A stretch of 64,000 nt of DNA from Laspinema palackyanum D2c (GTDB lineage Bacteria; Cyanobacteriota; Cyanobacteriia; Cyanobacteriales; Laspinemataceae): NCBI RefSeq assembly GCF_025370875.1, contig NZ_JAMXFD010000009.1, positions 62,001-126,000 of the forward strand, read 5' to 3'. Below the pieces are notes generated by a model. That model searched no databases, was not told the DNA's origin, and saw only the letters and a program-made list of their open reading frames with translations. A program made the position numbers and the translations under genes. Positions 43,728 to 47,104 of the stretch are shown here, in pieces. The stretch's first letter is position 1; every line of letters begins with the position of its first letter.

Positions 43728-44075
43728 CTATTCCCATTCGAGTTCTAAAGACGGCATCAGTCGCTGTAAGTTCTTCAATGATTTTCCCTGCCACAGTAGC
43801 TTTTTAGAACCTTTGACAATCAGATTCACATTCTTTTTCTGCCGTACTTTAATCACAAACTTGGAAAGCACGTTGATCCCCGAGCTATTTAAAAATTCTA
43901 GGCCCTTGAGATTGAGAATCATCGTCTCCGGTTCTTGGTCGATCGCGCTTTCGAGGAGTTGGATAATTGGGTCATATTCATCCATACCATTCAACCGCAG
44001 GGAACCCAGGCAGTTTAGTGTCGAGGTTTCATTCTCATACCACAGGCGATAATCGTCAGTCTTAATTTCCATCAT
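43728..44075 (-). CDS. STAS-like regulator (slr1659 superfamily type)
   Basis: This 115-residue protein has the STAS/anti-anti-sigma pattern: LLESAIDQEPETMILNLKGLEFLNSSGINVLSKFVIKVRQ. The serine pair of FLNSSGI corresponds to the phosphorylatable serine of SpoIIAA-like proteins. It is expected to bind the ATPase-like partner encoded upstream (44433). The name slr1659 superfamily is from memory of cyanobacterial annotation. Start at MMEIKTDDYRLWYENE; a second ATG follows immediately. Confidence 0.8.
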   Translation of the reverse strand: MMEIKTDDYRLWYENETSTLNCLGSLRLNGMDEYDPIIQLLESAIDQEPETMILNLKGLEFLNSSGINVLSKFVIKVRQKKNVNLIVKGSKKLLWQGKSLKNLQRLMPSLELEWE

Positions 44076-44432: not shown

Positions 44433-45014
44433 CTATAATAAGAGTTGTACCATTGTGGTTACGGCGATCGCTTTTTGCTCCGCGTTCATATCTTGAAATT
44501 TCCACCCTATCTTAGCGTCATAGTCGTTGATCATGGTCAGAAAACCCACTCCCGAGGTGCTGCTGCCACCCTCTTGGGCATTTTTTTCCACTTGCTTAAT
44601 GTAGAGTTCTAGGGGATCCTCAGTGCTTAACAGTTTTAAAAATCCCTTAAATTCCCGCACTTTCTCACGGCAAATACTATTAGTGGTAACAAAAACAATT
44701 CTTTCAGGATTTAAGTGGAGTTGAATACTAATCGGAGCTCCCGGAGCCTGTGCACTAAACTTCATGGCATTTTCTAGGAGTTCATTGGCAATGTAGCTGA
44801 CTGCACATTGGATTTCGGCTTTTTTATCCGGAGGTGAAGCGGTTTCCTCACTATTTGGAAAAAACGTTGTTAAATAGTCTGCCAGAAAATCCGCCGATAA
44901 TCCATTGTTTCGCCATCGCTGTTTGAGGGGAATCGAAGCGGGAGAAAATCCCAAAATCAAATATTCCGTTCCCGAGGGCAAATCCTCAATGAAGTCTCCA
45001 AATATTTCGGTCAT
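44433..45014 (-). CDS. ATP-binding regulator (slr1658 superfamily type)
   Basis: This 193-residue protein has a GHKL-like ATP fold: N box YIANELLENAMKFSAQAPGAP, a strand RIVFVTTNSI and a glycine region TSGVGFLTMINDYDAKIGW. It resembles anti-sigma-factor or PP2C-partner kinases of partner-switching systems, here paired with the downstream STAS protein. No sigma factor is adjacent. Its short N-terminal segment (FGDFIEDLPSGTEYLILGFSPASIPLKQRW) is typical of this cyanobacterial group. Target unknown. Confidence 0.75.
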   Translation of the reverse strand: MTEIFGDFIEDLPSGTEYLILGFSPASIPLKQRWRNNGLSADFLADYLTTFFPNSEETASPPDKKAEIQCAVSYIANELLENAMKFSAQAPGAPISIQLHLNPERIVFVTTNSICREKVREFKGFLKLLSTEDPLELYIKQVEKNAQEGGSSTSGVGFLTMINDYDAKIGWKFQDMNAEQKAIAVTTMVQLLL

Positions 45015-45591: not shown

Positions 45592-46449
45592 TTAAGCTGC
45601 TGATAATTCCCGCACAGGTTCCACCCCACGCACCCGACGCCCGACTGCTGCTGCCACCGGACCCAAACTCTGCACCAACTCTACCATCTCGGGAAGCGAA
45701 AGAGCCTGTCTCGCATCAGAAACCGACTGTTCCGGTTCCGGGTGACACTCAATAATCAACCCATCGGCCCCTGCTGCCACTGCCGCCCTTGCCAATCCTG
45801 CCACTAATTCTCGCTTACCGGCGGCATGAGACGGGTCCACCATCACCGGCAAATGGGTAATCTGTTTCAGGGCCACCACTGCCCCCAAATCCAGAATATT
45901 CCGCGTGAAGGAATCGAAACTACGGATCCCCCGTTCACAGAGAATCACATCCGGATTCCCATGACTGAGGATATATTCAGCAGCAAACACAAATTCTTCC
46001 AGGGTCGCTGCCAGTCCCCGCTTCAACAACACGGGTTTACCCGCTTCCCCTAATGCTTTGAGCAAGTCGAAATTTTGCATATTCCGACTGCCCACTTGTA
46101 ACATATCCGCGTGGGCAACAATGCTTTCAATTTGATGAACGGACATTACCTCCGTCACCACGGGAATCCCATAGCGCTGACGCACCCCAGATAAAATAGT
46201 TAACCCCGCATCTCCCATGCCTTGAAACGAGTAAGGGGAGGTGCGGGGTTTGAAGACGCCACCGCGTAACATTTGCACGGGTGCATGGGCGAGGTGACGG
46301 GCGACGGTTTCCATTTGTTCGAGACTTTCCACGGCACAGGGACCGCCGATAATTAATAAGTCTTGGCCCCCGATCGTGGTGCGATCGCCGATAGAAATGG
46401 CGGTTTGTTCCGTGGGATGAGATTTGTTGACGAGTTTGGCATTTTTCAT
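45592..46449 (-). CDS. aroF: 3-deoxy-7-phosphoheptulonate (DAHP) synthase, type I-beta, catalytic core only
   Basis: DAHP synthase condenses phosphoenolpyruvate and erythrose 4-phosphate, the entry step to Phe, Tyr and Trp. The 285 residues cover only the barrel: IIGGPCAVESLEQM, LRGGVFKPRTSPYSFQGMGDAG, QVGSRNMQNFDLL, KPVLLKRG, ILCERGIRSF and VDPSHAAGKRELV. Compared with the Thermotoga-type enzyme, the N-terminal ferredoxin-like regulatory domain (about 65 residues) is absent; the protein begins at the equivalent of KLVSREFHPED. There is no ACT or chorismate mutase domain either. GGAG lies 8 bp before the ATG at 46449. The 360-bp leader carries two leader peptides and two terminators, described below. 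Confidence 0.95.
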   Translation of the reverse strand: MKNAKLVNKSHPTEQTAISIGDRTTIGGQDLLIIGGPCAVESLEQMETVARHLAHAPVQMLRGGVFKPRTSPYSFQGMGDAGLTILSGVRQRYGIPVVTEVMSVHQIESIVAHADMLQVGSRNMQNFDLLKALGEAGKPVLLKRGLAATLEEFVFAAEYILSHGNPDVILCERGIRSFDSFTRNILDLGAVVALKQITHLPVMVDPSHAAGKRELVAGLARAAVAAGADGLIIECHPEPEQSVSDARQALSLPEMVELVQSLGPVAAAVGRRVRGVEPVRELSAA

Positions 46450-46489: not shown

Positions 46490-46523
46490 AAAAAGCCCGG
46501 AACCTTTTTAAAGTTCCGGGCTC
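46490..46523 (-). terminator. Proximal attenuator terminator of aroF
   Basis: On the minus strand, AGCCCGGAAC (46522-46513) pairs with GTTCCGGGCT (46503-46494), extended by AAA/TTT pairs at the loop side, and runs into TTTTTT. It lies 41 bp before the aroF ATG and 26 bp after the stop of the second leader ORF. Its 5' arm can alternatively pair with leader codons (CCCGGAACT with AGTTCTGGG at 46560-46552). Confidence 0.85.
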
Positions 46524-46548
46524 AGGCGATTTGGCATCATGACAAAAC

Positions 46549-46614
46549 CTACCCAGAACTCTTTCTGAGCCAAAAATAAAAACCAAAAAACCAGTTAGGG
46601 AGATGGGATGTCAT
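46549..46614 (-). CDS. Leader peptide 2 of aroF, aromatic-rich (21 residues)
   Basis: The ORF runs from ATG 46614 to TAG 46549. It encodes MTSHLPN, then WFFGFYFW (two Trp, four Phe, one Tyr and one Gly in eight codons), then LRKSSG. AAAGG stretches lie 10-20 bp before the ATG. The codons for the terminal S-S-G form AGTTCTGGG, which is complementary over nine bases (one G-U) to the 5' arm of the following terminator. A ribosome stalled in the aromatic run would leave this segment free; one reaching the stop would cover it. This is the arrangement of trp/phe-type attenuation leaders. Confidence 0.8.
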   Translation of the reverse strand: MTSHLPNWFFGFYFWLRKSSG

Positions 46615-46656
46615 GGCGATCGCCTTTTTCCTTTGCGAGAGAGTGTTTCAAACCAA

Positions 46657-46685
46657 CAAAAAACCGCAGCGTTGCTTCTGCGGTT
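46657..46685 (-). terminator. Distal attenuator terminator of aroF
   Basis: On the minus strand AACCGCAG (46685-46678) pairs with CTGCGGTT (46669-46662) around eight bases, followed by TTTTT. It lies after leader ORF 1 and before leader ORF 2. The upstream GCTGGTGAACC (46692-46682), which overlaps the base of the stem, can instead pair with GGTTCACCGGC in leader ORF 1. Confidence 0.75.
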
Positions 46686-46713
46686 CACCAGCGGTTTCCA
46701 TGTCAAAATGGAT

Positions 46714-46770
46714 TCACTGCCGGTGAACCAAGATAAACCAAAAATAAAAGAAGGGGCTGCGGTTTAACAT
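46714..46770 (-). CDS. Leader peptide 1 of aroF, aromatic-rich (18 residues)
   Basis: The ORF runs from ATG 46770 to TGA 46714 and encodes MLNRSPFFYFWFILVHRQ: six consecutive aromatic codons (Phe, Phe, Tyr, Phe, Trp, Phe). No strong Shine-Dalgarno sequence is visible, as is common in cyanobacteria. Its codons for L-V-H-R-Q contain GGTTCACCGGC (46729-46719), complementary over 11 bases (one G-U) to GCTGGTGAACC just before and into the distal terminator. The layout repeats that of leader 2, which argues against chance. Confidence 0.75.
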   Translation of the reverse strand: MLNRSPFFYFWFILVHRQ

Positions 46771-46817: not shown

Positions 46818-46846
46818 AACCTAACAAAGCTCAAACCTGATGTCAA
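46818..46846 (-). promoter_or_regulatory. Candidate promoter of the aroF leader
   Basis: On the minus strand TTGACA (46846-46841) is followed after 17 bases by TAGGTT (46823-46818), a weak -10. It would start transcription about 40 bp before leader ORF 1, giving a transcript leader of about 360 bases. Confidence 0.45.
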
Positions 46847-46890
46847 CCCCCCAATCGGGATAACTTTTAACCCGGATTTCTACCTAGAGG

Positions 46891-47098
46891 TAGAGTGTTT
46901 CCTCGCTTCCTCGTGAGGGGGCTTCTGCCGCGTCACGCAATCTGGAGGCTCTGCCTCCAGTCCGCAAGCAAGGGTTTAAGCGGCCTATTATTGTACCTAT
47001 CACGGCTTCAAATCCTCATTAAAGGTACCGGCGGCAGAGCCGCCAAGAGTGCGTGACGCGCTTAAGCCCCGTCACGAGAAAACGCCAGACGCACTCTA
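46891..47098. repeat. MITE-like element with about 70-bp imperfect terminal inverted repeats
   Basis: The left end TAGAGTG ... CTCGTGAGGGGGCTT ... GCGTCACGCAATCT ... GGAGGCTCTGCCTCC is matched in inverted order from the right end. The right end reads, on the minus strand, TAGAGTGCG ... CTCGTGACGGGGCTT ... GCGTCACGCACTCT ... GGCGGCTCTGCCGCC. The inner palindromes differ between the ends but each stays self-complementary. About 208 bp, with no ORF. It separates the aroF leader from the polysaccharide export genes. Confidence 0.75.
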
Positions 47099-47104
47099 TC
47101 ATCC

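Follow-up and report, generated by a model that had tools for sequence, protein, structure and literature searches.

The window, a 64,000-nucleotide stretch of the genome of the cyanobacterium Laspinema palackyanum D2c, carries on its minus strand the gene aroF (45592..46449; ATG at 46449, end at 45592), which encodes a type I DAHP synthase of 285 amino acids. DAHP synthase is the first step to phenylalanine, tyrosine and tryptophan. The protein matches NCBIfam PRK08673 with 398 bits (cut-off 335) and TIGR01361 with 354 bits (cut-off 268). It is one of two DAHP synthases in the Laspinema genome. The second, about 50% identical, lies at L224:1418-2482 (G000 contig 10), has 354 amino acids and a longer N-terminus, and belongs to NCBIfam PRK13396. 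Downstream of aroF, on the same strand, are regulators of the slr1659 family (anti-sigma antagonist-like) and the slr1658 family, at 43728-44075 and 44433-45014. No aromatic-pathway proteins occur among the aroF neighbours scanned.

Read from promoter to gene, the minus strand presents a sigma-70-like promoter, leader ORF 1, terminator 1, leader ORF 2, terminator 2 and then aroF. A preliminary description of this DNA had claimed the order leader, terminator, leader, terminator, aroF on this strand, and its coordinates are correct to the base. The predicted sigma-70-type promoter (46818..46846, minus strand) has a -35 element TTGACA (46846-46841), a 17-nt spacer and a -10 element TAGGTT (46823-46818). 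Over 169 rows of orthologous loci the best promoter upstream of leader 1 scores 8.5 of 12 on average; shuffled copies average 6.2. Adjoining the promoter on its upstream side, positions 46880-47100 are repeat-rich and inverted-repeat-like; about 100 nt of this region (46900-46998) recur in part at 16 other places in the genome, a pattern that a small mobile repeat would give. The spacer from terminator 1 to the ATG of leader 2 covers 46660-46615 (median 33 nt in orthologues) and is so short that it leaves little room for a second promoter.

Leader ORF 1 (MLNRSPFFYFWFILVHRQ; 46714..46770, minus strand) runs from an ATG at 46770 to a stop that ends at 46714 and would encode 18 amino acids with the core FFYFWF. 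The aromatic core and a Val-His end are conserved among orthologues. The last codons of the ORF (Leu-Val-His-Arg-Gln) contain the 5' arm of a putative antiterminator (GGTTCACCGGC; 46719..46729, minus strand), and its 3' arm (GCTGGTGAACC; 46682..46692, minus strand) overlaps the 5' side of terminator 1. Positions 46729-46719 pair with 46692-46682 in 11 base pairs, one of them G-U, just as the preliminary description had counted. Terminator 1 itself is an intrinsic hairpin (46661..46686, minus strand) of the form GAACCGCAG-N8-CTGCGGTTT, with a T-run to 46658. The pairs of both stems covary among relatives.

The second unit is built in the same way. Leader ORF 2 (MTSHLPNWFFGFYFWLRKSSG; 46549..46614, minus strand; ATG at 46614, stop ending at 46549) would encode 21 amino acids around the conserved core WFFGFYFW. 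The 5' arm of its antiterminator (AGTTCTGGGT; 46551..46560, minus strand) spans the last three codons and the first base of the stop, and the 3' arm (GCCCGGAACT; 46512..46521, minus strand) lies on the 5' side of terminator 2. Here the earlier count holds as well: positions 46560-46552 pair with 46520-46512 in 9 base pairs, one of them G-U, and one further U-G pair can be added on the loop side. The last codons (Ser-Ser-Gly) hold AGTTCTGGG, a 9-bp complement of CCCGGAACT, the 5' arm of terminator 2. This terminator (46493..46523, minus strand; GAGCCCGGAACTTT...GGTTCCGGGCTT; T-run to 46489) also has covarying pairs, and its stem sequence differs from that of terminator 1. The locus therefore has the parts of an amino acid attenuator twice over: two putative short ORFs rich in conserved regulatory aromatic codons, an intrinsic terminator with a covarying stem between each ORF and aroF, and, behind both leaders, a gene that makes the amino acids encoded in them.

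We propose that the aroF 5' leader is very probably a pair of ribosome-mediated transcription attenuators in series that sense aromatic aminoacyl-tRNAs. RNA polymerase would start upstream of leader ORF 1 at the predicted promoter. With charged Phe, Tyr and Trp tRNAs plentiful, the ribosome would reach the stop of leader 1 and cover the antiterminator arm (around Val-His), and with this arm covered terminator 1 would form. With charged tRNAs scarce, the ribosome would stall within the aromatic run, the leader tail would capture the 5' part of the terminator about to be made, and the polymerase would continue. Leader 2 and terminator 2 would repeat the decision with stems of other sequence. AroF would be made only from polymerases that pass both terminators, and control by the two units would be multiplied.

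Might the leaders act mainly on translation, through ribosome loading or re-initiation at aroF, or on Rho-dependent rather than intrinsic termination? Effects of leader ORFs on translation are known elsewhere, according to the available part of PMC4833913, and ermB has two leader peptides for translational control (PMC8274638, available part). At aroF, however, a hairpin and a T-run with a covarying stem stand behind each leader, and the stop of leader 2 lies about 100 nt upstream of the gene. Moreover, the accessible text of PMC4833913 finds no short-distance leader peak in cyanobacteria. We regard control of this kind as extremely unlikely.

How widely is the arrangement kept? A search with AroF through 290 genomes of the class gave a match at E <= 1e-40 in 221 of them and a full-length orthologue in 108 (E at most 2.2e-118, identity 67% or more). 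Other relatives among the matches listed are a clade of 53-56% identity, the DAHP synthase of about 50% identity and a partial orthologue at a contig edge in G003, which was left out of the counts. Upstream DNA was fetched separately for 78 of the 108 orthologue genomes and came with the search loci for the other 30. A scan of named genomes covered the best 80 of 267 loci encoding a relative, from Laspinema, Oscillatoria, Nostoc, Calothrix, Leptolyngbya, Phormidesmis and others. An automatic rule required a pair of aromatic leader ORFs with a terminator behind each; rows with less than 62% identity or less than 220 nt upstream were left out, and five loci (L013, L020, L027, L052 and L076) were dropped for too little upstream DNA. 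By this rule both units are present in 175 of 184 orthologue rows, among which WIN and L089 are one locus and the genome sets may overlap.

Covariance models, one per unit and each built from 54 diverse rows (56 less L133 and L191), correct this count. Five of the nine rows that the rule missed have both units (L047, L060, L062, L139 and L147), two have unit 1 only (L116 and L197) and two have unit 2 only (L021 and L194); L191 passed the rule, yet its unit 1 is degenerate (21 bits, E 0.027). After correction both units stand in 179 of 184 rows. Homologues that lack the aromatic ORFs would have spoken against the preliminary description; in the upstream regions of related aroF genes these ORFs are kept. 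The models for units 1 and 2 also cross-match the other unit weakly in L021, L047, L062, L116 and L197 (17-25 bits, E 0.009-0.21).

When the 290 genomes were searched with the models (13 first-look candidates scored per genome, under strict filters), unit 1 was matched in 110 genomes and unit 2 in 108, with one match per genome. Counted by genus, these are 62 and 61 of 132. Both units are present in 104 of the 108 genomes with a full-length AroF orthologue; G055 and G218 are without unit 1, G282 and G010 without unit 2. In G120 and G102 both units are present and the contigs end before a whole aroF fits. Two genomes show remnants: G108 has a readable unit 1 leader before a broken aroF (L220:2305-2644), and G114 has a decayed unit 1 and no aroF in the stretch read (L222:2718-2827). 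In G121 (L104) the AroF orthologue match contains one in-frame TGA, with both leader units present.

At the 23 paralogue loci neither model matches at E <= 1, though some of them have stray aromatic ORFs. These loci are the second DAHP synthase of the same genome (L119), six of a 52-58% clade and 16 of the clade of about 50% identity. In a FastTree phylogeny of 197 DAHP synthases (23 paralogues and 174 that have the pair, with orthologues that fail the automatic rule left out), presence of the pair needs one change. In the sequences compared, the tandem units are beyond chance and are linked to one aroF clade. A scan of the Laspinema genome with the codon pattern of the cores found 24 matches, the same number as its reversed control, and is therefore uninformative on further leaders.

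The leader peptides are constrained at the level of the amino acids. Of the 174 cores compared for each leader, 167 contain all three of Phe, Tyr and Trp, in leader 1 as in leader 2; the conserved aromatic runs expected from the preliminary description are thus found. Tyrosine is encoded by TAT 186 times and by TAC 138 times in leader 1, and by TAT 103 times and TAC 211 times in leader 2. Because the third base is free, the residue itself is what is kept. The start signals speak against the attenuator reading: an in-frame ATG before the core is absent in 3 of 174 leader 1 and 10 of 174 leader 2 rows, and a Shine-Dalgarno match of 4 or more precedes leader 1 in 10 of 169 rows and leader 2 in 46 of 164.

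These observations bear on a second alternative, in which the leaders answer to an RNA-binding protein or, as riboswitches, to a metabolite, and the short ORFs are incidental. The terminator and antiterminator pairs alone would suit a riboswitch too, and unit 2 weakly resembles the trpB motif (RF04312), scoring 28 bits where the gathering score is 59. Against this, each antiterminator arm is embedded in the final codons of its ORF, downstream of the aromatic codons, and what is conserved in those codons is the amino acid. Scans of the window and of 20 homologous loci gave no Rfam match at or above a gathering score, and the 54-row alignments reveal no conserved RNA core beyond the described stems. 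A sensor of this sort strikes us as barely credible. The trpB resemblance, seen in a relaxed scan, was set aside as an identity for unit 2 because the match is far below the cut-off and the motif is described, in the available text of PMC11109978, from Firmicutes and Fusobacteria.

Attenuation by translating ribosomes calls for two competing stems in each unit, and both leave a record of compensatory change. After duplicates had been collapsed and units longer than 170 nt removed, sets of 161 (unit 1) and 165 (unit 2) distinct rows were compared with 300 shuffles. Antiterminator 1 is paired in 92.3% of cells and has 109 double changes over its 161 rows (shuffles: mean 24.7, maximum 38); antiterminator 2 is paired in 89.2% and has 80 over 165 rows (mean 27.2, maximum 41). 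For terminator 1 the figures are 99.7% and 28 double changes (shuffle maximum 6), for terminator 2 94.4% and 96 (shuffle maximum 46). All four stems, then, exceed the shuffles in double changes, and the preliminary description is borne out in its call for covarying stems. If the partner is slid along the sequence, pairing falls to 0.15-0.62 across all sets. The double-change counts of slid partners are well under the true ones, except for antiterminator 2 at +2 and +3 (58 and 71, as against 80); at +3 the 71 double-change cells go with pairing in only 17% of cells. Thinning at 80% identity, to 67 and 73 rows, gave the same outcome. In the separate 54-row alignments, none of 500 shuffles reaches either antiterminator in paired cells, double-change cells or covariation score. 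For unit 2 in this alignment two of five measures are not above the shuffles: pairs with a double change (3, shuffled mean 3.2) and pair types (13, shuffled mean 13.0).

Because the antiterminator arm is coding, its pairing is visible in the peptide. Leader end and opposing arm could be read in 163 of 174 rows for each unit and were compared by a Fisher test, which ignores kinship. In unit 2, Ser-Gly ends occur with CCCGGA in 147 rows and Pro-Gly ends with CCCGGG in 11; the exceptions are Pro-Gly with CCCGGA (4 rows) and Ser-Gly with CCCGGG (1 row). In unit 1, Val-His ends are found with GTGAACC (133 rows), GTGGACC (9), GTGAGCC (7) and GCGAACC (2), and all eight Ala-His ends with GTGAGCC. The four Val-Arg ends are split between GCGAACC (2) and GTGAACC (2), so that the matching arm is missing in two of four. 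On the tree, residue and arm of unit 2 change nine times each. Supported branches yield three independent pairs for unit 2 (two change the same way, one shows no difference) and four for unit 1 (on average 2.7 the same way, 0.1 opposite and 1.2 none). With so few events the sign tests on these branches are not significant, and taken alone they leave kinship possible as the source of the association.

Can a stalled ribosome tip the balance between the stems? The preliminary description had supposed that stalling favours the antiterminator, and the answer depends on when folding is judged. We folded 174 rows with the 3' arm of the terminator still to be transcribed and a ribosome halted on the first codon of the core. 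Under these conditions the predicted pairing of the terminator 5' arm with the leader tail has a median of 0.75 in unit 1 and 0.89 in unit 2, and exceeds 0.5 in 89% and 98% of rows; with the ribosome at the stop codon it disappears (median 0.000). Duplexes of the leader tail with its own terminator arm have median energies of -24.6 (unit 1) and -17.5 (unit 2); shuffled tails give -10.7 and -8.1, and pairing with the arm of the other unit gives -12.3 and -11.2. To this extent the supposition stands: the antiterminator excludes the terminator, and its arm is predicted to be covered by a ribosome at the stop and freed on a stall.

The supposition needs refining once the full-length RNA is folded to equilibrium, where the picture is less clear. 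With the whole terminator present and the ribosome at the first core codon, the terminator keeps a median probability of 0.70 in unit 1 and 0.89 in unit 2, as against 0.98 at the stop, and only 53% and 56% of rows, respectively, have a stall position that lowers it by more than 0.3. In Laspinema the unit 1 terminator drops from 0.90 to 0.40 under stall, and that of unit 2 stays at 0.95 at every stall. Since equilibrium often favours the terminator despite a stall, antitermination must rest on the order of folding: in these models the antiterminator has to form first and hold. In the absence of translation, predicted antiterminator pairing is intermediate, with medians of 0.61 (unit 1) and 0.68 (unit 2); the antiterminator should thus often form unaided, and no strong protector hairpin was found in either unit when folding was predicted with no ribosome. 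The E. coli trp leader, by comparison, has a strong protector hairpin that favours termination when translation is absent.

The two leaders differ in where their tryptophan codons lie. The median distance from the first Trp codon to the leader end is 8 codons for leader 1 and 14 for leader 2. If the ribosome is assumed to cover 11, 13 or 15 nt, stalling at Trp leaves median antiterminator pairing of 0.33, 0.07 and 0.00 in unit 1; the corresponding values for unit 2 are 0.88, 0.87 and 0.86. Stalls at Phe or Tyr codons are predicted to be effective in either unit, at 0.55-0.76 in unit 1 and 0.88-0.90 in unit 2. In leader 1 the distance between Trp codon and antiterminator arm is so small that a stall at Trp should have hardly any effect. 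The effect is milder in Laspinema unit 1 (0.56, 0.29 and 0.11 for the three footprints), and one point speaks against the asymmetry: the Trp codon is kept in 173 of 174 leader 1 cores. Because the cyanobacterial footprint is assumed, the asymmetry is a prediction. The earlier supposition about stalling on Phe, Tyr or Trp codons agrees with these models for unit 2, and unit 1 is predicted to be nearly blind to Trp.

A weak Trp response in unit 1 would suit a third alternative, that a single unit is the working attenuator and the other a conserved constitutive terminator or RNA 3' end, for example of a small RNA ending at terminator 1. Four of the 108 genomes do keep a single unit beside an intact aroF. 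But both models match in the other 104, and in each unit the ORF with its aromatic run, the terminator and the covarying antiterminator are conserved. If one hairpin were just a terminator, an aromatic ORF with final residues that vary together with its stem would not be retained beside it. We consider a lone working unit very unlikely.

If both attenuators work, as we favour, they may differ in what they read. We suggest tentatively, and with rather more doubt than conviction, that the leader is a conserved two-stage attenuator that reads one class of signal twice with different tuning: the first stage would respond to Phe and Tyr and scarcely to Trp, the second to all three, making the leader a multi-input logic gate. 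Because polymerase must pass both stages, aroF would open fully in a shortage of Phe or Tyr and only partly in a shortage of Trp. Such a leader-peptide logic gate would be tied to one clade of DAHP synthases and kept in dozens of genera. If our reading is right, leader-peptide attenuation would extend to cyanobacteria, and ribosomes in these bacteria would trail RNA polymerase at a distance short enough to influence its course. Genomes that naturally carry one unit, together with the predicted Trp asymmetry, allow a direct test of what stacking attenuators achieves, and the leader would offer cyanobacterial engineering a compact control of the entry to the shikimate pathway.

A 2016 paper states, in the part available, that there were no reliable data on attenuation in cyanobacteria (PMC4833913). 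The accessible main text of PMC2965389 does not name cyanobacteria, and the available parts of PMC10219788, PMC11109978 and PMC3766115 have nothing on an aroF leader. In the open-access literature, as far as its texts were accessible, we found no earlier report of a tandem leader at cyanobacterial aroF, though one elsewhere is possible. The same portion of the literature yielded no description of a one-signal-class tandem attenuator with two intrinsic terminators.

The classical leader-peptide attenuators of amino acid operons include those of E. coli trp, pheA and his. Like them, the aroF leader places a short ORF with regulatory codons, a terminator and a competing antiterminator before a gene concerned with the same amino acids. 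Unlike them, it has two complete units, each leader mixes all three aromatic residues, the antiterminator arm lies inside the last leader codons and no strong protector hairpin was found. The E. coli trp attenuator is summarised in the accessible text of PMC3641672. Another comparable system is the uORFC-13-1 motif before aroF in Acholeplasma, described in the available part of PMC8632094 as a candidate Phe-coding upstream ORF with a terminator and known from 24 sequences, from Acholeplasma and environmental sequences only. It too joins an aromatic upstream ORF and a terminator to a DAHP synthase gene, and it differs in having one unit, not two. Two terminator-ended sensors in series are found in the tandem riboswitches of B. 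clausii metE (as cited in PMC3641672, available part); there the RNA itself senses two ligands, whereas the aroF units would rely on ribosomes on leader peptides. The nearest tandem precedent is Salmonella mgtCBR, whose tandem attenuators mgtM and mgtP, according to the same part of PMC3641672, sense ATP and proline and have stem-loops unlike intrinsic terminators. In both systems two short ORFs precede the gene, each acting (at aroF, by prediction) on its transcription; the order and spacing of the aroF units would fit such a series on one transcript, as predicted from the promoter. Unlike mgtCBR, both aroF units carry aromatic codons and both end in intrinsic terminators.
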